Source: a virus
Strand: one strand, 5' to 3'
DNA: 32,451 nucleotides
Virus record (IMG/VR): IMGVR_UViG_3300042691_006884
Coordinates: 1 to 32,451 of that record
Shown here: in pieces, positions 1,542 to 32,403 of the stretch
How positions within the stretch are numbered: position 1 is the first letter of the stretch
Layout of the letters: the number at the start of each line of letters is the position of its first letter
The notes under the pieces: model-generated
Seen by the model: only the letters and a program-made list of their open reading frames with translations
What the model was told of the DNA's origin: nothing
Databases searched by the model: none
Position numbers and translations under genes: made by a program

Positions 1542-2164
1542 TGCAAACCGACACCTTCAGCAATCTCCTGACGCTCACCAAGGGGCTCACCGGAAACACC
1601 GCCTTTACGACGGAGGAGACGGCGCTGGTGTCGTCGTTCATCAACCGGAGACTCTACAACGCTTATCGGCGCAACCAGCACTGGCCCCGCTACTTGGTCA
1701 CGGGTGAAGCTCGTGCCGTCTCGGGCGGGCTGGTGCCGTTTACGCAGGCCACCTTGGAGCCCATAGATACGTTCCTGCGCATCTATCGGGAATCGCCCTA
1801 CGGCACCTACTCTGTGCCTGAGTATTCGTTCTACGTCACCAATGGCGGGGCCACCATTCTGTCCAAGCCAGACGACGTAACGACGGTGTACGTGGACTAC
1901 AAGAAGCGCTGGGACGGGGACTACAACACCACGACCAACACGCAGGTGCCGCAGGAGTTCTTCCAGTATGCTGCGCACGGGGCCTTTGCCGACTTCCTCC
2001 GGTATGATGGCCAGAACGAGAAGGCTGCGGCTGAGGATGGCTATGCCGAGTCGCTGTTGGCGTTGGAGCTGGAGAACGTGATGAACCAACGCAACTTCAA
2101 CACCATTGGGAAGCGCATCCGGTCGCACAGCTCCACGCAGTCGCGTCACTCTACCATCCGGTAG
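1541..2164 (+). CDS. Tail tubular protein A-like head-tail adaptor
   Basis: A 207-residue protein resembling T7 gp11-like adaptors in length, position and pattern. An N-terminal helical part (ETALVSSFINRRLYNAYRRNQHWPRY) is followed by a beta-rich middle (PEYSFYVTNGGATILSKPDDVTTVYVDYKKRWDG) and a helical C-terminus (QEFFQYAAHGAFADFLRYDGQNEKAAAEDGYA). In the family this protein forms the ring between portal and tail nozzle. The call rests on remembered pattern and synteny with the nozzle protein at 13762. The start overlaps the previous stop by one base. A terminator follows at 2189. Confidence 0.65.
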   Translation: MQTDTFSNLLTLTKGLTGNTAFTTEETALVSSFINRRLYNAYRRNQHWPRYLVTGEARAVSGGLVPFTQATLEPIDTFLRIYRESPYGTYSVPEYSFYVTNGGATILSKPDDVTTVYVDYKKRWDGDYNTTTNTQVPQEFFQYAAHGAFADFLRYDGQNEKAAAEDGYAESLLALELENVMNQRNFNTIGKRIRSHSSTQSRHSTIR

Positions 2165-2188
2165 TATTCGATTGACCCGAAGCTCAAC

Positions 2189-2216
2189 GGCGCATCCTTA
2201 TGGGTGCGCCTTTTTT
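2189..2216 (+). terminator. Intrinsic terminator abutting the glycosyltransferase start
   Basis: Arms GGCGCATCC (2189-2197) and GGGTGCGCC (2202-2210) pair over 9 bp with one wobble. The loop is TTAT and six T follow at 2211-2216. The next ATG is at 2217, the same TTTTTTATGC junction as at 1233-1242. Confidence 0.85.
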
Positions 2217-3251
2217 ATGCGATTCCACGTTGTAGCGATGCCGCAGAGTTTCACCACCCGCGCCTACTCTGCCTGCGGGTTTAGCCAGAAGACCATCAGG
2301 TTCTGTTGGATGATGAAGACCTTGGGCCACACGGTGTTCCTCTACAGCGGGCCTGAGAATCAGGCAATCTGTGATGAGCACGTTGTGATTAGCACCGAGG
2401 AGGACCAGAAGCTCATCACTGGCGGAAGCCACTACATCTACCCGTCTTGGCAGACCGGCCATCCGATTTGGGTGAAGACCAACCAAACGGCTGTGGACGA
2501 GATAAACAAGCGGAAGCAGCCCGGGGATTTCGTATGCGTGCTGGGAGGCAACTGCCAGAAGCAGATTGCCGACTCTTTGCCAGACCTGAAGGTGGTGGAG
2601 TATGGGATTGGCTACGAGGGCTTCTTCTCCAAGTGGAAGGTGTGGGAGAGTCACGTTTGGCGCTCCTACTGCATTGGTCGATGGGCCAACAGTCGTCCTA
2701 TTGACCAGCACGACACCGTGATTAACGCCTTTTACGACGATATGGAGTATGTCCGTAACGTACCCAAGAAGCCGTATGCGTTGTTCTTGGGACGAGTGAC
2801 GCCAGCCAAGGGAATCGAAGAGGCCTGTGAGGCCGCTCAAAAGGCGGGTATGCCCCTCAAGGTGGCTGGTTTTGGCAACCCCAAGCTCGTAACGCGAAAT
2901 GCCGAATACTTGGGCGTGGTTGATTTGGATCAGAAGCTGGCGCTCCTTGGCGAGGCTAGTGTGCTCATCTGCCCCACGCGCACCTTTGAGCCATTTGGCA
3001 ACGTGGCCTGCGAGGCCCAGCTTTCTGGAACTCCAGTGGTATCAACAAATTATGGAGGTTTTGTTGAGTCCGTCGAGGATGGCGTCACCGGCTTCCGGTG
3101 CAACACGGTGGATGAGATGGCCTCGGCCCTGCATCACGCCCAGTCGCTCAGTCGAATTACTATCATAAATCGTGCCATCAAGATGTTCTCGATGCGATCC
3201 AAGATGTTCGACTACAATCGCTATTTCAACGCGCTGTCCGCTGTGCAGTAG
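2217..3251 (+). CDS. Glycosyltransferase, GT4-like (GT-B fold)
   Basis: A 344-residue enzyme. The start at 2217 gives the family-typical beginning MRFHVVAMPQSFTT; an in-frame start further upstream would read through the terminator. The C-terminal half shows GRVTPAKGIEEA and then EPFGNVACE, an EX7E motif with E258 and E266, followed by GTPVVSTNYGG, as in retaining GT-B transferases that use nucleotide-sugars. Possible targets are phage proteins, phage DNA or host surface glycans; the sequence does not decide. It lies between structural genes, with a terminator before it and a fresh -10 after it, like a moron. Codon use is not obviously different from its neighbours. Confidence 0.85.
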   Translation: MRFHVVAMPQSFTTRAYSACGFSQKTIRFCWMMKTLGHTVFLYSGPENQAICDEHVVISTEEDQKLITGGSHYIYPSWQTGHPIWVKTNQTAVDEINKRKQPGDFVCVLGGNCQKQIADSLPDLKVVEYGIGYEGFFSKWKVWESHVWRSYCIGRWANSRPIDQHDTVINAFYDDMEYVRNVPKKPYALFLGRVTPAKGIEEACEAAQKAGMPLKVAGFGNPKLVTRNAEYLGVVDLDQKLALLGEASVLICPTRTFEPFGNVACEAQLSGTPVVSTNYGGFVESVEDGVTGFRCNTVDEMASALHHAQSLSRITIINRAIKMFSMRSKMFDYNRYFNALSAVQ

Positions 3252-4771: not shown

Positions 4772-7700
4772 GCACGCCTGCCATCCTTCGCCATCGTCGC
4801 GACACCGCCGCCAACTGGACCAGCAACAATCCAGTGCTGGAGGCGGGGCAGCTCGGCTACGAAACCGACACCCTCAAGTTTAAGCTAGGCAACGGGACTA
4901 CGGCTTGGACCGGCCTGTCCTATGCGTCAGGTGGCAGCGGGCCAACGGGTCCTACTGGTCCCACGGGTGCGGGTGGTGCGTTGTCCTACTACGGGTCGTT
5001 CTACGACTCTAACGACCAGACGTTGACCAGTGTCACTGGCGCTCAGGCTATCACCATTGGCTCCACCTTTGAGTCGAGCGGGGTGAGCCTTCAAAGCGGT
5101 TCTCAGGTGAAGTTCACCTATGCAGGGACGTATTCCATCACGTTTTCTGTTCAGCTTAGCAATCAGAACGTCGCAATCCAGACTGCTAGGCTTTGGCTCA
5201 GAAAGAACGGCACCGACCTTGCAGACAGCAATAGCGTAGTTGACGTTCCCGGCACTCACGGCGGCGTTGATGGGCACAACCTAGCCACGGTTAATTACGT
5301 CGCTACGTTTGCGGCTAACGACTACATTCAGGTTTATTGGAGTGCGACCAGCACCGACTTGTCCGTTGAGCAGCTTCCGTCTGCCACCGGCCCTGTTCGC
5401 CCTGCCACTCCGTCAATCATTCTTACGGCCTACCAGCTCACCTATCAGGGTGTCACTGGTCCCACTGGACCGACTGGTGCTGCTGGAGCCACCGGAGCAA
5501 TTGGCCCCACCGGACCAACGGGCGCCACTGGCGCAGCAGGCCCGACTGGTCCAACTGGTGCTATGGGCACTACGGGTCCCACGGGCCCCACTGGTGCAAC
5601 TGGTGCAGCCGGTGTCACTGGCCCCACGGGCCCAACAGGTCCTGCTGGCGCCACTGGTGCTGCCGGTCCTACGGGAGCTACGGGCATCACTGGTCCCACG
5701 GGTCCCACTGGTCCGCAGGGTGCTCAAGGCGTCACCGGCCCTACTGGTGCTGCGGGTGCCGCCGGTGTTACTGGTCCCACTGGGCCCACTGGTCCCACGG
5801 GGGCTAGTGTCACGGGTCCAGCGGGCCCAACTGGACCGACTGGTGCTGCTGGCGCTACGGGCCCCACGGGGCCTGCCGGTGCCACTGGAGCTGCTGGTCC
5901 TACGGGTCCCACTGGCCCTCAAGGCATTCAGGGCGTAACTGGACCAACTGGACCTGCGGGCGCCACCGGCACCACTGGCCCCACGGGTCCTACGGGTGCG
6001 GCTGGTGCCACTGGCGTCACCGGCCCCACGGGGCCTGCTGGCGCCAACGGCGTTACTGGCCCTACCGGTCCCACTGGGCCTCAGGGCATTCAGGGCGTTA
6101 CTGGTCCCACTGGTCCTACGGGTCCAACGGGTGCTAGCATCACTGGTCCCACAGGTCCTACAGGCCCTACCGGCCCAACGGGCCCTGTAGTTGGCGTCAC
6201 GGGTCCCACGGGTCCCACCGGCCCTACTGGTCCCACCGGCCCTACGGGAGCGAGCGGCAGCGGTCTTGTTGATGGCGACAAGGGCGACATCACGGTAAGC
6301 GGCACCGGAGCCACTTGGACCATCGACAATGACGCAGTGACGTATGCCAAGATGCAGAACGTCTCTGCGGCATCAAGACTGCTCGGGCGGGGCTCTGCAT
6401 CTGGTTCTGGAGACGTAGAGGAAATTGCTCTGGGCACCGGACTGTCTATGTCCGGCACCACCCTGAATGTTTCAGGGGCCGTTGGACCCACCGGACCCAC
6501 TGGTCCTACTGGTGCTACGGGTGCCGCTGGACCTACCGGACCCACTGGTCCGGCAGGAGCCACGGGCGTCACCGGTCCAACTGGACCCACGGGGGCGCAG
6601 GGTATTCAAGGCGTTACCGGCCCCACGGGTCCTGCGGGCGCTCAGGGCGTTACGGGTCCGACTGGCCCCGCAGGCGCTACGGGCGTCACCGGCCCGACTG
6701 GCCCTGCTGGCGCTCAAGGTGTCACGGGTCCCACGGGTCCTGCTGGAGCCGCTGGCGTTACTGGTCCTACTGGACCTGCTGGAGCCACGGGTGTCACTGG
6801 TCCTACAGGCCCTGCGGGAGCTACGGGCGTAACGGGGCCAACCGGCCCCGCTGGTGCTACGGGTGCTGCTGGCCCCACTGGTCCCACGGGTCCTGCGGGG
6901 GCTACTGGCGTCACTGGACCTACTGGACCCACTGGTCCCGCAGGAGCCACGGGTAGTGCTGGTCCCACCGGACCTACTGGCCCCCAAGGCATTCAAGGCG
7001 TTACAGGACCCACTGGTCCTACCGGCGCTCAAGGCATTCAGGGCGTCACCGGGCCTACTGGCCCCGCTGGTGCTACCGGTGGCACTGGCCCAACCGGACC
7101 CACGGGTCCCACTGGAGCCAGTGTCACCGGACCTACAGGTCCCACGGGCCCCACGGGTCCTACGGGTCCTGCTGGCAGTGGCTCTTCCGGTTGGGCAACG
7201 AAGACCTCAGCATACACGGCTGTCGCTAGTGATCGGCTTTTGGCCGACACTTCTGGTGGTGCGTTCACGATTACACTTCCGGCCACGCCCTCTGCTGGCA
7301 ACTACATAGAGATTAACGACCCAAAGAAGACTTGGGCCACCAACAATCTCACGGTTGCTCGAAACGGTTCAAACATCGACAGCCTTGCAGAAGACCTAGT
7401 CTGCAACATCTCGGCTGCTATTGGCCTGACGTACATCAACTCCACCATTGGGTGGGAGGTTGATTTCATCAACGAGGTTGGCGGTGTTCAGAAAATTAAC
7501 CAGAACATCCAGACCAGCAGCTACACCCTAGTTGCATCCGACCTAGGAAAGCACATCTACACCAGTGCAGGGGTTACGGTGCCACAAAGCGTGTTCAATG
7601 CCGGAGATGTGGTTTCAATCGTGAATAGCAGTGCGTCAACGATCACCATCACTCAAGGCACTGGTGTTACGATGTACCTGTCTGGAGTCGGTAGTACGGG

Positions 7701-7788
7701 CAATCGCACGCTAGCCCTTCGCGGGGCGGCTACGCTGCTCTGTGTTGCCACCAACACGTTCGTGATTATGGGTGCTGGCCTAGGCTAA
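4768..7788 (+). CDS. Collagen-like tail fibre with C1q/TNF-like domain
   Basis: A 1006-residue fibre. Residues 1-57 resemble the Mtd/tail-fibre N-terminal module ([15 protein letters not shown], then [18 protein letters not shown]). After a short GPTGPTG block, about 70-224 is a beta-rich C1q/TNF-like jelly-roll candidate ([19 protein letters not shown]). Gly-X-Y collagen repeats, mostly GPT, GPA and GAT, run about 226-493 and again about 572-800. They are split by a fibre-type linker ([34 protein letters not shown]). Residues about 801-1006 form a beta-rich head, probably the distal receptor-binding part. The collagen should form a trimeric stalk. It heads a run of adhesin genes. Confidence 0.85.
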
Positions 7789-7789
7789 T

Positions 7790-8566
7790 ATGCCTCTTCA
7801 ACAGGTATTCTTCGTATCTCCTACCATCGCCACTGGTGGTACGGAGTTTGTCCACGACGGGTATCGGGTGCACATCTTCACCTCGTCTGGCACGTTCCAG
7901 TTGCTGTCGGCATCTCCCACTTCCACCGCTCAAATCTTTGTGTGCGGCGGAGGGTTCAACGGAACTGCTGGCGACCCCGCAGACACAGGAACGTCGGATG
8001 GCGCTGACGGCGGTGCGGGCGGGGCTGGTGGTGGATACACTCTTTCAAGCGAGAGTGTTATCGGCACCTACTTCGCCACTGGAAGTTCATACTCCATAAC
8101 CGTTGGCGGAGTTGGAGGCACAAGCAGCGCTGCGATTGTATCTGGAACGCTTACATCGCCTTCCGCTGGATCAACTGGTGGCGCTGGTGGGCCAGGAGGC
8201 ACTGAGCCCGGTGCTGGCACTGTTGGCGGCGCAGGCAGTGGGGCAACAAGCCTAAACTGGAACGGCACATCCTATTCATTTGGCGGTGGCGGTGGTGGTG
8301 GCGGCGGTGGTGGTTCCAATACATCTACTACAGGAGCAAATGGCGGAGCGGCTTCCGGTGGAGCAGCGGGTTCTGGCGGCAAAGGTGGAAATGCATTTGG
8401 TTCTGGCGGGGTTGCTGGCGTTAATGCAAACACCACTGGATACAATCGAGGCAATGGCGGAGGTGGCGGTGGCGGTGGCGGTCACGGTGTCGGTGTGCCT
8501 GCGATTACCGGAGGGGCTGGCGGATCTGGTTCCGCTGGTATCGTGATGATTCGCTATCGCCTGTAA
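7790..8566 (+). CDS. Glycine-rich tail fibre/adhesin protein 1
   Basis: 258 residues. A short beta-rich N-terminus with YRVHIFTSSGTFQLLS precedes an extended glycine-rich body (runs of six to eleven Gly), and the protein ends in a beta strand, GSAGIVMIRYRL. This design (F[TS]SSGTF... Gly-rich core... GIVxIRY) is common in phage fibre-tip proteins, where the Gly-rich part may fold as polyglycine-II helices, as in T-even-type gp38 adhesins. It starts one base after the collagen fibre stop with no Shine-Dalgarno, so it is probably coupled to it. Receptor binding is inferred. Confidence 0.75.
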   Translation: MPLQQVFFVSPTIATGGTEFVHDGYRVHIFTSSGTFQLLSASPTSTAQIFVCGGGFNGTAGDPADTGTSDGADGGAGGAGGGYTLSSESVIGTYFATGSSYSITVGGVGGTSSAAIVSGTLTSPSAGSTGGAGGPGGTEPGAGTVGGAGSGATSLNWNGTSYSFGGGGGGGGGGGSNTSTTGANGGAASGGAAGSGGKGGNAFGSGGVAGVNANTTGYNRGNGGGGGGGGGHGVGVPAITGGAGGSGSAGIVMIRYRL

Positions 8567-8571
8567 TACTT

Positions 8572-9588
8572 ATGGATTTATCCGCCATAAAGCCCCCGTC
8601 ACTAGTCGGCCCAGACGGTCTGACTATCAACGCGCAGGTCAATACCTACACTACCACCGGGACCCTGCACACTTGGACAAAGCCAGCCGGAGCCAAGGCG
8701 GTGCAGATGATCGCGGTCGGCGCAGGCGGAGGTGGCGGTGGTGGGAATGGCAGCGCCGTTGCCACCCAACGGAATGGTGGAGCTGGGGGAGGTGGAGGTG
8801 CAAACGGGCAAATCATCTACACCGCTGACCAGTTGCCGGCCACGCTTTACATCCGAGTTGGTGCGTCCGGTACGGCGGGAGTTAGCAACGGCGCCGGGGG
8901 CGCCGGAGGCAACAGCACGATTGCGGCTGCTGACCCCATCACGAATTTGACATCCGTCTACTGTATGGGCGGCGGTGGCGGCGGGGGAGAAGCTGGAGCG
9001 TCTTCCTTAGCTTCAGTTGGCGGAGGCGGAGGAGGAACTGCGGGAGCAGGAACTACTGGAACTGGAGATTCGGCTGTTGTTGGCGGTCTTCCGGCCGTGA
9101 GCATTGGTTTTTCGATTGGTGGAGGAGGCGCGGGCGGCGGGAACGGAGCGTCAGGAAGTTCAAGTTATGCGGCAGAATGGGGCGGAGGCGGTGGCGGCGG
9201 GGTCCGTAATGACGGAGCGAATCGCCAGCCGGGTGGTGGCAGTCTGTACGGCGGAGGCGGTGGCGGCGTTGGCGGCTTTGTAAACTCCGCTGGAGGAGGA
9301 AACGACGGTGTTTGCGGCGGCGCTTCTGGTCGATACCTTGTTACGAACAACCAAGCCAGCTTTGGAGGTGGTGCTGCCGGAGTGGGTACTGCGGGCGGAG
9401 CTGGGGCTAACGCGACGACCCTCTATGCCGCGGGATCGGGCGGAGGTGGGGGTGGAGTATACGGTTTTGCCGGCGGCGCTGGCGGTTTCCCGGGCGGTGG
9501 AGGAGGCGGCGGCGGAGCTTCTCCTAGTACCGGTGGAACAGGTGGAGTTGGTGGAGCCGGTCGAGTAGTCCTCGTCACCTTCTTCTGA
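8572..9588 (+). CDS. Glycine-rich adhesin, tandem paralogue A
   Basis: 338 residues. The N-terminus (MDLSAIKPPSLVGPDG..., then TWTKPAGAKAVQMIAVGAGG) is shared with the next two genes. The body is more than one-third Gly and contains landmarks found in the paralogues: a MGGGGGGG block, GGGGGGTAGAGTTG, AEWGGGGGGG, YGGGGGG, and GRYL-x-x-N (shared with B). It ends in a beta strand, GGAGRVVLVTFF. Likely a trimeric or monomeric fibre-tip adhesin with polyglycine helices. The stop codon overlaps the start of paralogue B (TGATG). Receptor unknown. Confidence 0.75.
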   Translation: MDLSAIKPPSLVGPDGLTINAQVNTYTTTGTLHTWTKPAGAKAVQMIAVGAGGGGGGGNGSAVATQRNGGAGGGGGANGQIIYTADQLPATLYIRVGASGTAGVSNGAGGAGGNSTIAAADPITNLTSVYCMGGGGGGGEAGASSLASVGGGGGGTAGAGTTGTGDSAVVGGLPAVSIGFSIGGGGAGGGNGASGSSSYAAEWGGGGGGGVRNDGANRQPGGGSLYGGGGGGVGGFVNSAGGGNDGVCGGASGRYLVTNNQASFGGGAAGVGTAGGAGANATTLYAAGSGGGGGGVYGFAGGAGGFPGGGGGGGGASPSTGGTGGVGGAGRVVLVTFF

Positions 9589-16641: not shown

Positions 16642-18417
16642 ATGGCCGAAACATCCGAAGACCTAGGTCTTGTTGGCGTGAACAACCCCAAGCCTAACTA
16701 CAACCCCACGGGTGGCGTAGTGCAGTTGCCGGGGCAGGGCGGGGCTCCCGGTGCGTACACGGTGGACCCGGGTGCGGCAATGGCCAACTACCTTAGCTCG
16801 TTCAGTCCAGAGCTAATGGACCAGCTTTTCAAGCTGGAGCAGGAGTACGGAACGCGGTTTCAGGATATGGACATTGCGGCTCGCAACCGCAATATCAATT
16901 CCCTCACCGCTTTAATTGGAAACCTGACCAATACGGCTGGGAATGTGGCCCGGGACGAAACCCGCACGCAGTCGCAGTTTGAGGTTGATCGGTTTGGGCA
17001 GTTTGGTGGTGCGTCCATTGCAGCTTACATAGCCGGGAACCCCTACCTGAAGTCGGCTATGGATCGGTCGGATGCCCTTGGGGGTGTTTCGACCAATGCG
17101 GCTTACGATGCCCTGTCTAAGCAGCTTCTTGGCGGCGCTCCTAGCAACATCGACCTGAGTCCTGAGCGGATTATGGCTGGTCAGCTAGGGGTTGGCGGAA
17201 GGCTCACCCCTCAGCAGGTGCAGGCCGAGCGGGTGGCAGCGGAGCGCATTGCTGCGGAGCGCATCGCAGCAGGTCAAGTGCAGGCTGGAGAGGTGGGCGC
17301 TGGTGCTCTGGGCCAATCGCTCTATCAGCAGGCTTTAAGCAATCAGCAGCTTTCCCCGCTGTCTCAGGCCCTTCAGGCTCAGGGTTTGGGGATGGCGACG
17401 GCCCCGGGCCAGCTCAACCCAGAAGAGCTTCGTGCTGCCACTCAAGGGGCGCGTGAGCGGTTTGCTTCTAGCGGAAGGCTGGAGGACAACCTTGGCATCA
17501 CTGGGGAGGCGCTTGCCCGTGCTGGCGCTTCTCGTGAACGCCAAATGCAGGACTTGGCTGCTGCGCAGGGGATTAACGCTCAGCTTCTGGGGGCCCAACA
17601 GGCCGGTCAGGGGTTGGCTACGGACGTTCTTCGGGCTGACATTGCCCGTCAGCAGGCCAATGTGGCCACTGGTCTACAGGCTGGCACCTTCAACGTGGAG
17701 TCGGCTCTACGTGCGGCGCAGGCCAATCAGCAGACTGGGTTGCAGGCTTCGCAGGCCAATCAGGATGCATTCCTGCGAGCGGCCCTTGCCAATCAACAAA
17801 CGGGGCTACAGGCGTCACTGGCCAACCAACAGGCGGGGATGCAGGCCGACCAATTCAACATCAGCAACCTGCAAGATGTAAACCGCTTCAATATCCAGAC
17901 TGGTTTGGATACGAGTCGGTTTAACGCTGACGCTGCCAATCGCTTTGCGGAGGCCAATCGTGGGTTTAACTACACCGCCCAGCAGGACTACCTCCGTAAT
18001 CTGGGTCTGCTTGGCCAGTCTACGCAGGGCTTGCGTGAGTCGGATCGCGCATACAACCTCAATCAGGTGAACACTTACGGCAATGTGAGCAATGCCGGGT
18101 TGAACGCCACGGGCTACAACACTCCTGCTCCCGGTGTGGCCGGTGGAATGAACTACTTCACTGCTGGCTCTACCGTATCTCCCAGCCAGAAGTTTGACCC
18201 GAATACTGGTGTCAATCTGGCGGCTACCAACGCCGCCAACCTGAGCAACTACAACGCCAACATCTACTCGGCCAACAAGACGTTGGAGGCTGCGGAGAAG
18301 ACGGCGGCTGCTACCAAGTCCGCTGGAAAGAGTTCTATGTTCGGCAGTATTGCAGGCGCCGCATTGACATCTGGTCTTGCCGCAAAGGCAGGAACTGCTG
18401 CTCTTGCTGCTCTATGA
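16642..18417 (+). CDS. Internal virion protein with Ala/Gln-rich repeats (591 aa)
   Basis: No named domain is recognised. Residues about 190-450 are Ala, Gln, Glu and Arg-rich helix, with short repeats such as AERIAAERIAAGQVQAGEVG and a roughly 12-residue repeat (ANQQTGLQAS, ANQDAFLRAA, ANQQTGLQAS, ANQQAGMQAD). This suggests a long amphipathic helical rod. A hydrophobic small-residue C-terminus (FGSIAGAALTSGLAAKAGTA) could insert in membrane. Between nozzle/fibre and two larger internal proteins, it matches the ejection-protein slot of podoviruses (T7 gp14-16 analogues by position). Stop overlaps the next ATG. Confidence 0.65.
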   Translation: MAETSEDLGLVGVNNPKPNYNPTGGVVQLPGQGGAPGAYTVDPGAAMANYLSSFSPELMDQLFKLEQEYGTRFQDMDIAARNRNINSLTALIGNLTNTAGNVARDETRTQSQFEVDRFGQFGGASIAAYIAGNPYLKSAMDRSDALGGVSTNAAYDALSKQLLGGAPSNIDLSPERIMAGQLGVGGRLTPQQVQAERVAAERIAAERIAAGQVQAGEVGAGALGQSLYQQALSNQQLSPLSQALQAQGLGMATAPGQLNPEELRAATQGARERFASSGRLEDNLGITGEALARAGASRERQMQDLAAAQGINAQLLGAQQAGQGLATDVLRADIARQQANVATGLQAGTFNVESALRAAQANQQTGLQASQANQDAFLRAALANQQTGLQASLANQQAGMQADQFNISNLQDVNRFNIQTGLDTSRFNADAANRFAEANRGFNYTAQQDYLRNLGLLGQSTQGLRESDRAYNLNQVNTYGNVSNAGLNATGYNTPAPGVAGGMNYFTAGSTVSPSQKFDPNTGVNLAATNAANLSNYNANIYSANKTLEAAEKTAAATKSAGKSSMFGSIAGAALTSGLAAKAGTAALAAL

Positions 18418-19211
18418 CCTATGAGCAGAAAGTCGCCCTAGCCAAACTCACTATCAAGGCTGGCCTTGAGAACTCAAGGAATCCGGCGGTGATGTGCAGC
18501 TTTGGCAAGGACAGTGTGGTTGTCCTGCATTTGGTTAACACCTTCAAGCGACTGAAGGTTATCTTCCACCGAGAGCCATTCCAGCATCACAAATATGACT
18601 ACGCCAATCGGGTGATGAAGGAGTGGGACTTGCACGTTATCGACTACCCTCCCGCTAGCACGGCAGCAGCGGAAGTCGGTTCGGATATGGAGGTAGTCAA
18701 CTACTACCAGATTGGAGCCAGAACCGTTCATCTGCCCACGGGCCTGAAGCACGAAGACAAGGGGCCAGACACCCTTTGTGCCCTTACTGAAATCTACGGC
18801 AAGCCAACCGGCACGTTCAACTACCCCTTCGACTTAGTGTTCCACGGCCATAAGTCGGTAGACAGCGATCCGATTATGGGTGATGTGCCCCTGTTCTCGG
18901 ATGTGGCTATGAACATCGGGGCTCCGTCTGCGGCGTTCCCAATCCGCCACTTCACCCACGCGGACGTATGGCGGTACATCGAGGAGAACAACATCCCGAT
19001 TCACCACGAGCGTTATGAGAAGCGGGATGGTGAATGGGTGGAGAAGGACGACAAGACCAACAACCCAGACTACATTGGCTGCTGCTACGCCTGTATGTCC
19101 CAGAATACGGGGAATAGCGTTCATTGCCCCAAGTGGGGTCTCACCGTCAGCAATGTCTCTAGCCAGCTTCGTTGGGCTCCTAAGTTGGAGGCCAGTTATT
19201 TGAAGCGGTAG
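18414..19211 (+). CDS. PAPS reductase / ATP-pyrophosphatase family enzyme (PP-loop)
   Basis: 265 residues. PP-loop SFGKDS at 29-34 follows VMC, as in PAPS-reductase/DndC-type proteins (usual SGGKDS), and binds ATP or PAPS phosphates. A Cys cluster C223, C224, C227 and C238 (DYIGCCYACMSQ...VHCPKWG) could hold zinc or Fe-S. No C-terminal ECGxH reductase motif is visible, so true sulfate reduction is doubtful; thiolation or phosphorothioation-type chemistry is as likely. It starts in an ATGA overlap with the internal virion gene. The gap to the next gene holds that gene's own promoter. It is probably an auxiliary gene inside the ejection cluster. Confidence 0.75.
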   Translation: MTYEQKVALAKLTIKAGLENSRNPAVMCSFGKDSVVVLHLVNTFKRLKVIFHREPFQHHKYDYANRVMKEWDLHVIDYPPASTAAAEVGSDMEVVNYYQIGARTVHLPTGLKHEDKGPDTLCALTEIYGKPTGTFNYPFDLVFHGHKSVDSDPIMGDVPLFSDVAMNIGAPSAAFPIRHFTHADVWRYIEENNIPIHHERYEKRDGEWVEKDDKTNNPDYIGCCYACMSQNTGNSVHCPKWGLTVSNVSSQLRWAPKLEASYLKR

Positions 19212-30280: not shown

Positions 30281-30486
30281 GACGCCTCCTCGATGGCATT
30301 GTCAATGCAGGAAGACCGGATGCCCTTCTTGCGGTGGTAGTTGGTCAGCACGCGCTGGTTGTGCAACTTGCGCATCAGCTCTTGTTCACGCTCGGCCCAC
30401 TCTTTACGAGTGAGGTGTTCAAGGTATCCCTTATTGGACACCAGCTTTACTCCAAAGCACGCTAGCAGTTTGTTTATTGTGTTCAT
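30277..30486 (-). CDS. Small basic hypothetical protein (69 aa)
   Basis: The product starts MNTINKLLACFGVKLVSNKG, with a basic, helical rest (TRKEWAEREQELMRKLHNQR) and a C-terminal CIDNAIEEAS. A TTG two codons earlier is an alternative start. No family recognised. Its first 56 bases overlap the lysozyme-like gene. Confidence 0.5.
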   Translation of the reverse strand: MNTINKLLACFGVKLVSNKGYLEHLTRKEWAEREQELMRKLHNQRVLTNYHRKKGIRSSCIDNAIEEAS

Positions 30487-30853
30487 AGGCAATCATTTCG
30501 ATACGCCGCCCATAGGCCAGCGTGTCATCCTTCTTGTGGCCCCTCGGGCCACCCTTGTGCACCCGCGCCAGCGTCTGCACATCTCCAGTCGCCCACGCCC
30601 TCGGGGCGTAGCGCTTCATATACCCCTCGACCACTAACTTGGCCTTCTCCAAGTCGTCGCAGTCGGACCAGCTTCCACCGACGTTGCTATCCTCCCAATA
30701 GGCCCTGCTGATTTGCAGCGGGCCTCGATACTCACCCCAAGACACACGCCCCAACCTCCCTCCGCTCTCAACTTGATGGAGCGCGACCCAGAACGCCGCG
30801 CTAGGTGCAGCCAAGCATTGGCCAGAGAGCAGAAGGAAGAGGAGCGTGCGCAT
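30431..30853 (-). CDS. Secreted lysozyme-like / muramidase protein
   Basis: 140 residues with a Sec-type signal peptide (MRTLLFLLLSGQCLAAPSAA). Then FWVALHQVESGGR (putative catalytic E29), GEYRGPLQISRAYWEDSN, WSDCDD, VVEGYMKRYAPRAW and LARVHKGGPRGHKKDDT. The order E-S-G...QI..(A)YW.D...W..C...YM.RY...AR.H.GGP.G is the layout of invertebrate-type (destabilase) lysozymes and of a related bacterial group; most structural Cys are missing. It is likely the phage lysin that cuts peptidoglycan, exported by Sec. It sits in the early strand, away from the + strand holins and spanins. Confidence 0.65.
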   Translation of the reverse strand: MRTLLFLLLSGQCLAAPSAAFWVALHQVESGGRLGRVSWGEYRGPLQISRAYWEDSNVGGSWSDCDDLEKAKLVVEGYMKRYAPRAWATGDVQTLARVHKGGPRGHKKDDTLAYGRRIEMIAYEHNKQTASVLWSKAGVQ

Positions 30854-30863
30854 TGGGAGATGC

Positions 30864-31487
30864 TTAGAACGGGATGTCTTCCGAGTCGGCAGTGTCAGCC
30901 ACCGTCTCGGCCTGCGTCACGCGACTGTTGGAGCGGGCATTGGCCTCATCAGATGCGTCGATCTTGGCCCTAATCCACTCGGGCACCGCAGACGGCACCA
31001 CAATCGGACCGCTCTCAGGGATGTCGAACACCACGGTGTCCATCGAAGGACGTACAGGCGCCATCCCCTTGGTCAGCGGCATCACGCCTTGGATGCGGGC
31101 ATAGATGCGGCTAGGATCGGCCTTCCCGGGCTTGTGAACGATGTTCAGCAGGCAGTTGGCGCCGATGATGTTCTTCAGGTCGAACCCACCAAGCTCCTCG
31201 TTGGTGAACGGACGCCCGCGCCAGCTCTCCAAGATGCCACGCAGCGTGGCCTTCTTGCCGATGCTCATCGTGTATTCCGATGAGATGATGCGCGGCTGAG
31301 GGCCGTCAGAGGTGGAGATGGTTTCGTGCGGCAGTTCCCAGCAGATCATCACCTTGCGGGCGGCACGGTATTGGGGATTGCCCGGGTCTTGCGTACCCAG
31401 ATCAATCACCCCGTAACAGACGGCCTGATGAACCCCTGCGGGCACCGGCTCGATGGATTTACCACTATCAGCTTTAACGGTAGGCAT
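30864..31487 (-). CDS. NGO0469-family replication / ssDNA-binding protein
   Basis: 207 residues. The patterns SIEPVPAGVHQAVCYGVIDL, VMICWELPHETI, SSEYTMSIGKKATLRGILES, WRGRPFTNEELGGFDLKNII and GANCLLNIVHK match phage proteins annotated as NGO0469-family replication initiation proteins, which I take to be ssDNA-binding-like. The last residues, DSEDIPF, copy the acidic tip of bacterial SSB, used to recruit partner proteins, and an acidic linker precedes it. It is the second gene of the leftward operon, with a hairpin in the 36-base gap before it. SSB replacement is inferred. Confidence 0.75.
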   Translation of the reverse strand: MPTVKADSGKSIEPVPAGVHQAVCYGVIDLGTQDPGNPQYRAARKVMICWELPHETISTSDGPQPRIISSEYTMSIGKKATLRGILESWRGRPFTNEELGGFDLKNIIGANCLLNIVHKPGKADPSRIYARIQGVMPLTKGMAPVRPSMDTVVFDIPESGPIVVPSAVPEWIRAKIDASDEANARSNSRVTQAETVADTADSEDIPF

Positions 31488-31523: not shown

Positions 31524-31790
31524 TTAGTTGTTGGACGGATCGCCTCGGGTCACTTGGACGTTGGGTCCGTTCACCGAGATGCTGAAGCCAGCAGCCTCGC
31601 GTGTGGCCCTCAACTCCTTGTGAAGCTCCTTGGCATAGCGCAGCGCCGTCTCCTGCTCCTTGCAGGTGGGCTCCAGCTCAAATCGGCTGAAGAGTCCATC
31701 AAGGACGATTTCGGTACGAACCATCAGCTCAAGGACGCAGATGACATCCTCCCGCTCGATGGCCTTGGTTAGTTCGGTTGTGTCTTTCAT
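31524..31790 (-). CDS. First gene of the leftward operon, unknown (88 aa)
   Basis: The sequence MKDTTELTKAIEREDVICVL is followed by a helical, acidic middle (ELMVRTEIVLDGLFSRFE) and a C-terminal beta part (GFSISVNGPNVQVTRGDPSN). No family is named. GTG at 31799 is an alternative start adding three residues; a GGGG just before ATG 31790 could serve as a weak ribosome site. As the first leftward gene, it is probably expressed early and may act on the host or on replication. Confidence 0.6.
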   Translation of the reverse strand: MKDTTELTKAIEREDVICVLELMVRTEIVLDGLFSRFELEPTCKEQETALRYAKELHKELRATREAAGFSISVNGPNVQVTRGDPSNN

Positions 31791-31799
31791 CCCCAGCAC

Positions 31800-31895
31800 T
31801 ATCTATTATTTTCCCCAAAAATACTAGCTCTATTTTTAAGAGGATAGTAAGGTGCTGTTGGATTGGTATTTACGATATTTCTTTTTTGTTTATGC
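31800..31895 (-). promoter_or_regulatory. AT-rich region, likely leftward promoter
   Basis: The most AT-rich stretch of the right end lies just upstream of the first leftward gene. On the - strand it contains TAGTAT about 30 bases before the ATG and other TA-rich hexamers. No convincing -35 is seen, so the exact promoter is uncertain. It lacks a gene. Confidence 0.4.
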
Positions 31896-31969
31896 ATCCA
31901 AACGCTGGTGCTGATGCAGGAACACGGGTGCACAGTTCACCCGTTGCCGGGTGATGCATCGAAACGCTG
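31892..31969. repeat. Direct repeat pair, 16 bases, 62 bases apart
   Basis: ATGCATCCAAACGCTG (31892-31907) and ATGCATCGAAACGCTG (31954-31969) differ at one base, and TGCTGA recurs one or two bases later in both. The repeats flank the alternative hairpins at 31924-31954. Confidence 0.75.
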
Positions 31970-32142
31970 TCTGCTGAGAGACGAGGTGTCCGGTATGCTG
32001 CCGCCCGTGCTGGTAGGCCAAGGCCCACGGGTTGTTCGGCGGTTCACTCCCAAAGGGAGCCGTATTAAGAGAAGCTGGTGTTGTCCGTCAGGCTTCTCGC
32101 CAGTACCACGGAATTGCCTCCTTGCACAGGTAGGCACCCCGC

Positions 32143-32242
32143 GTGTCAATCCTTCTACCCTAGAAACAAGAAACCCTCACCCCGGTGCATCGAGGTGAGG
32201 GTCGTGGCCTAGGTGACTAATCTAGGCCGGTAGAAGCGACAC
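32143..32242. other. Three-way junction of perfect stems
   Basis: Outer stem: GTGTC (32143-32147) with GACAC (32238-32242), and CTTCTACC (32152-32159) with GGTAGAAG (32229-32236), with a small internal loop between. Enclosed: ACCCTCACC/GGTGAGGGT (32173-32202) and GGCCTAG/CTAGGCC (32206-32228). The last inner stem directly abuts the outer stem, allowing coaxial stacking. Confidence 0.6.
32160..32202 (-). terminator. Possible - strand intrinsic terminator
   Basis: On the - strand the 9-bp ACCCTCACC/GGTGAGGGT hairpin is followed by TTCTTGTTTCT, an imperfect T-tract. It could stop transcription entering from the right. It may equally be only a stem of the junction at 32143-32242. Confidence 0.35.
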
Positions 32243-32311
32243 AATGAACAACTGGCGAGTTGGACCATAGCACAGCTTTGTGTTCCGTCAATAGATTTCT
32301 TGAAAAAAGTT

Positions 32312-32339
32312 GGCCCGGGGTGAACACGGCCCGGGGTGA
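32312..32339. repeat. Tandem 12-base GC repeat
   Basis: GGCCCGGGGTGA occurs at 32312-32323 and again at 32328-32339, a 16-base period. It is followed by further GC-rich sequence and no gene. Confidence 0.7.
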
Positions 32340-32382: not shown

Positions 32383-32403
32383 CCCCCCCCCCCCCCCCCC
32401 CCC
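32383..32403. repeat. 21-base C homopolymer
   Basis: An uninterrupted run of 21 C near the end of the window, in very C-rich sequence unlike the rest. Runs of this kind at contig ends often come from sequencing or assembly errors. From 32243 to the end no gene or other feature is seen. Confidence 0.8.

Follow-up and report, generated by a model that had tools for sequence, protein, structure and literature searches.

A candidate structured RNA family ahead of the replication operon in a group of uncultured phages

Does the non-coding stretch that precedes the replication operon of this uncultured phage encode a structured RNA, and if so, what might that RNA do? The window, by which we mean the whole stretch of DNA that was analysed, is an IMG/VR virus record of 32,451 bases, and a nucleotide search with it found no close phage record in the collection. 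Plus-strand structural genes lie in its left part, the first being partial and encoding a major head protein with a match to the Pfam family of SU10 major capsid proteins; a glycosyltransferase-like gene (2106-3251) and a PAPS-reductase-like gene (18414-19211), both on the plus strand, are found amid them. The replication operon runs leftward in the right part of the window, from 31799 down to 25104, and encodes a small protein, a phrog_862 protein, a PD-(D/E)XK exonuclease, a DnaB-type helicase and a DNA-repair exonuclease-like protein. Its first gene (31524-31790, minus strand) encodes 88 aa from an ATG, or 91 aa from a GTG at 31799. The phrog_862 protein of 207 aa (30864-31487, minus strand), which some relatives have annotated as putative ssDNA-binding, was our query for collecting homologues. 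The third gene of the operon (30431-30853, minus strand) matches the Pfam Destabilase family (lysozyme type) just over the curated cut-off, which is odd among replication genes. No tRNA gene is present in the window; in the relatives L041 (1255-1331, minus strand) and L169 (3651-3723, plus strand), tRNA genes (tRNA-Asp and tRNA-Thr) lie close to where the replication operon begins. The 21 consecutive C at 32383-32403, close to the record's right end, are possibly an assembly artefact, which makes the sequence to the right of them doubtful.

The initial annotation had proposed a previously undescribed structured phage RNA at 31923-32242. As it had described, this region is non-coding, contains inverted repeats and adjoins the replication operon, upstream of it on the minus strand. 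The claim that the repeats are far denser than elsewhere does not hold. The region has seven perfect inverted repeats (at least 6 bp, loops up to 60) against a mean of 4.5 in 201 windows of 320 nt, and 39 of these 201 windows have at least seven. By GC-corrected folding energy the region comes 6th (minus strand) and 12th (plus strand) among the 201 windows, and it folds better than its dinucleotide shuffles (z of -4.5 on the minus and -3.2 on the plus strand). Inverted-repeat density is an invalid signal for an RNA here. Since the density claim fails, and 6th and 12th are modest ranks for folding energy, it is comparative evidence on which an RNA must rest.

Two separable modules upstream of the operon

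The comparison of homologues divides the region into two modules, R1 and R2, which sit immediately upstream of the replication operon on the minus strand; all coordinates given for them below refer to that strand. The span 31923-32242 fuses R1 and its terminator with the R2 core, omits the promoter and trims about 20 nt from the 3' end of the R2 core, which reaches 31904.

The promoter scan detected the sigma70-type promoter P1 at 32264-32291, composed of TTGACG, a 16-nt spacer and TATGGT, with a TG one base before the latter (extended -10). TTGAC and most of TGnTA...T are retained in 12 aligned homologues, and similar elements are found in L024 and L041. Going by spacing, transcription from P1 would start at or near a conserved GCCAG. 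R1 is the predicted transcript of about 95 nt (32162-32256) from this GCCAG, the start that we infer, to the U-run of the terminator T1. Eleven divergent sequences, L169 among them, share its layout, in which a conserved unpaired 5' segment precedes a hairpin and then an intrinsic terminator. In alignment and folds the 5' segment, GCCAGUUGUUCAUUGUGUCG (32237-32256), is conserved and mostly unpaired. The stem of hairpin A (32206-32228), defined from alignments and folds, varies while its pairing is kept (GGCCUAG/CUAGGCC, GGACUAG/CUAGUCC, GGAUUAG/CUAAUCC and others), and UGUS or GUC loops are frequent; in L007, L008 and L041 the hairpin was assigned by inspection, as the MFE folds of these sequences pick other pairings. 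T1, found by the terminator scan at 32172-32203 between P1 and R2, has the features that define an intrinsic terminator, namely a GC-rich hairpin followed by a U-run, with the U-rich tail extending to about 32162. An equivalent exists in every relative that retains this part. A boxA-like CGCUCUU lies ahead of hairpin A in L006 to L009; the window has CGCUUCU, and the sequence is absent from L010, L011, L024, L025 and L041. We also considered a pairing between the GCCAG of R1 and a CUGGC of R2. It is kept in the groups of one alignment and lost in L024, and was rejected as a general feature.

The R2 core of about 200 nt (31904-32103; 200 positions in the covariance model) was delimited by alignments, covariation and an island of conservation. 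About 110 nt separate its end from the first operon gene, and a 5' hairpin extends R2 to 32143. This hairpin, H0 (32107-32143), is imperfect, carries the loop CCU-GUGCA-AGG and has several compensated pairs in RNAalifold. R2 has at least five helices. H1 (32069-32098) has a 6-bp stem with compensatory changes at four pairs and a partly invariant loop; its stem variants are GAGAAG/CUUCUC, GGGAAG/CUUCCC, GGAGGG/CCCUCC, GGGGAG/CUCCCC, GGAAGG/CCUUCC and GGAUGG/CCAUCC. H2 (32047-32059), found by inspection of the alignment, pairs CUCC(C) with (G)GGAG around a UUU, UUUG, UUCG or UUUU loop. H3 (32000-32040) consists of three stacked stems in alignment and covariation, the middle one covarying at three pairs (CCCGUG/CACGGG, CCACG/CGUGG, UCACG/CGUGA). 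H5 (31937-31954) has a 7-bp stem that is closed by an invariant GCAA (GNRA) tetraloop; in the alignment a single pair is compensated and one C-G becomes U-G. A near-perfect 16-bp direct repeat (31892-31907 and 31954-31969, 62 bp apart) is located inside and just after R2, and a similar repeat, CAGCGU..., is present in relatives.

The two modules can be separated. A gene of 68 aa lies between them in L024, L025 and L041, where R2 keeps its place by the operon instead of remaining beside P1 and R1. The gene is found at 2083-2289 of L041 and at 14180-14386 of L082, on the minus strand of both, with a TTGACA sequence before it. The inverted repeat GGAACAGGGTGTTCC precedes it in L025 and L041, and its L041 copy has no PHROG match. 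In L169, R1 and the operon are present and R2 is absent at that site. L169 is a member of the clade, with a helicase 68% identical, and its contig is a 23-kb fragment outside which R2 could lie.

Distribution, covariation and strand of R2

Scanning with the 207-aa protein as query yielded 32 loci, 23 of which carry the region wholly or partly. From 2.9 million viral contigs, two scans with DNA patterns contributed only two more, L041 and a truncated one, L115. R2 is present in about 25 related contigs, and is single-copy in each of the eight R2 contigs that were searched whole. We found no R2 outside this clade with a wider protein scan followed by a covariance model and a profile HMM, with the covariance model over 148 sources, or with three blastn queries against phage genomes. 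DNA patterns had no match in 84,980 bacterial and archaeal genomes, where exact patterns could miss diverged copies. Relatives of the SSB-like protein at 28-47% identity gave no R2 match either, and in L026 and L028, the two checked by ORF listing, compact coding sequence takes the place of R2.

Alignments of the window with L010, L018 and L011, read in steps of 40 nt, give R2 an identity of 68-85%. Identity is near 50-60% right after R2 and over much of the first gene, and about 75-85% over most of the 207-aa gene. In these alignments R2 stands out as a conserved island between flanks near 50%. The first operon protein shares 26-32% identity with those of L041, L024 (read in L082) and L169.

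RNAalifold of 15 sequences gives 57 pairs, of which 14 have compensatory changes. In ten diverse sequences our hand-defined R2 core structure of 35 pairs is 98% paired, and this falls to 35-52% when the partners are slid by one to three columns. Because related sequences can mimic covariation, we simulated a phylogeny-aware null, using a purpose-written simulation in place of R-scape, in which each column evolves independently along a FastTree tree, its changes matched in number and kind to those observed. H2 was excluded from this test because its columns are misaligned by one base. The 30 R2 pairs tested in 10 sequences are 100% paired, with eight pairs and 25 cells double-changed, compared with null means of 1.7 pairs and 2.7 cells; the observed pairing or double-change values were reached in 0 of 2000 simulations. 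The C-G to U-G changes in R2 fit an RNA of the minus strand, since the other strand would need A-C. Such wobble changes are few, and the strand call also leans on the direction of promoter and terminator.

A coding explanation was ruled out by the lack of a conserved frame and of a convincing PHROG match. In 15 homologues the reading frames of either strand are broken by stops and indels, and the local ORFs have no convincing PHROG match at E<=1. Rfam 15, which includes GOLLD, ROOL, riboswitches, tmRNA, RNase P and 6S, has no match at gathering thresholds in the whole window and none at E<=10 in 31780-32330, and our literature search found no description of R2. The initial annotation had asked for three checks, on compensatory changes in homologues, Rfam matches and a conserved ORF. 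All were run; the changes are present and exceed the null, a previously undescribed RNA is not contradicted by Rfam, and no frame is kept across homologues. A structured phage RNA is supported by these results, and the comparative data make a well supported case that R2 is a previously unlisted structured RNA family, found in these searches only in a little-known group of uncultured phages.

Could the conserved region instead be a replication origin, with hairpins acting as single-stranded DNA or with the P1 transcript priming DNA synthesis? It is an intergenic control region beside an operon with a DnaB-type helicase, an AT-rich stretch follows R2, and in the relative L069 the region sits between divergently transcribed arms, the genes on its far side including an amidoligase, a glutamine amidotransferase and a probable terminase. 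However, the wobble changes favour an RNA strand, the sequences that link the stems are conserved in the manner of a folded RNA, and only two-copy short direct repeats were found instead of an iteron array, though origins can lack iterons. We regard an origin as improbable. The amidoligase and glutamine amidotransferase genes of L069 are adjacent (7156-9121, plus strand), and an amidoligase gene is also present in L006 and L017.

Predicted role of R2 in the replication operon

Of the roles that the initial annotation suggested, a regulatory leader fits best, while a replication origin and a packaging RNA have little or no positive support. In the reading that we prefer, to which we give roughly an even chance, R2 is a new structured-RNA family that forms the 5' leader of the replication-operon mRNA and acts in cis. 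P1 and T1 share the strand of R2, and the scan detected no terminator-like site between R2 and the first gene. We consider a cis leader the best reading because of the constant position of R2 before the operon, the missing terminator after it and its staying with the operon despite the insertion of a gene. The job of R2 would probably be control of the replication genes.

The transcription of the region, the passage of T1, the cis action and the partner of R2 are all things that we infer. Transcription from P1 would first yield R1, and most of it would probably end at T1. A polymerase that passes T1 would copy R2 and go on into the operon. This step might happen by read-through, antitermination or an unrecognised promoter, and in relatives with the inserted gene a second promoter could offer an alternative entry to R2. 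R2 would then fold compactly and act in cis on the expression of the downstream genes, by way of a conserved partner such as the host RNA polymerase, the ribosome, an RNase or a small ligand. Some observations speak against this reading. The only promoter recognised for R2 in the window group lies behind the terminator T1. Folding of the whole leader with and without R1 and R2 gave no consistent change in the exposure of the first gene's start site, and a translational switch by start-site sequestration was rejected on this ground. Simple feedback by the product of the first gene seems unlikely because this gene is far less conserved than R2. R2 may also be dispensable for some members, because L169 has R1 and the operon with no R2 at that site.

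A further question is whether R2 could instead be a stable RNA, cut or terminated out of the leader, with a trans-acting role such as the binding of a phage or host protein. The greater conservation of R2 compared with the first protein behind it, which implies a conserved partner, the invariant GNRA tetraloop and well-conserved loops, and the separability from R1 would all suit such an RNA. Against this, R2 is found at one place only, before the same operon and in one copy per contig, and no terminator follows it. We see a trans-acting RNA as possible, if on the unlikely side. In a bolder reading, R2 might represent a new class of RNA machine, whether a ribozyme, a leader that senses a ligand or an RNA for host-factor capture, that folds and is dedicated to the control of phage DNA replication beside the separate, terminated R1; we hold this to be rather unlikely. 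If R2 acts on the host polymerase, the ribosome or a metabolite, it would give a phage a new means of timing its replication. The covariance model gives a means of looking for R2 elsewhere, and L169, which keeps the operon and misses R2, offers a natural comparison.

Comparison with known phage and leader RNAs

The put RNA of phage HK022, whose adjacent stem-loops lie near the early promoter, suppresses termination via the zinc-binding domain of the RNA polymerase beta' subunit, and the lambda nut site consists of a boxA followed by a boxB hairpin. These systems raise the question whether R2, or R1, is a processive antitermination element for terminators in the early operon. The leader position behind a sigma70-type promoter, the strong RNA conservation, as expected for a contact with host polymerase, and the boxA-like CGCUCUU before hairpin A in some relatives would agree with this. 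But R2 cannot rescue T1, because T1 precedes it, and terminator-like sites in the operon are no more frequent than chance, so that the idea of operon terminators needing antitermination was dropped. We find such an element very improbable. As a structured nascent RNA, put resembles R2 in its place behind a sigma70 promoter, within the leader of an early phage operon, and is the nearest in position, but it is only about 70 nt long with two stem-loops (PMC9378689), while R2 has about 200 nt, another layout and an operon behind it without an excess of terminator-like sites. R1, being a hairpin plus a terminator, has a length compatible with put. It is also similar to lambda nutL with its terminator, since its 5' segment is single-stranded and leads to a hairpin, whose loop motif recurs, and on to a terminator. 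The resemblance to a nut site is partial: the boxA-like sequence is missing in most R1 groups, among them those of L010, L011, L024 and L025, and no N-like protein was identified.

The packaging RNA of phi29 is a phage-encoded structured RNA of a size comparable to R2; it is a component of the prohead and is required for DNA packaging. That R2 has the same job is extremely improbable, as its genome position differs, in the leader of the replication operon, it matches no Rfam family, and the relative L169 has the same replication genes without R2 at that site. GOLLD and ROOL are, like R2, large conserved phage-encoded RNAs without known function, often found near tRNA islands, and GOLLD often exceeds 800 nt (PMC12286853). 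The initial annotation was right in finding the region unlike either of them, as both have Rfam models and neither matches here, in a window without tRNA. Leaders of the riboswitch type share with R2 a conserved RNA of about 200 nt before an operon, conserved loops and a GNRA tetraloop; R2 differs in having no Rfam riboswitch match and no recognised expression platform. We therefore report R2 as a member of the broad kind of structured phage leader RNAs, with a family that appears to be new and a function that is predicted.
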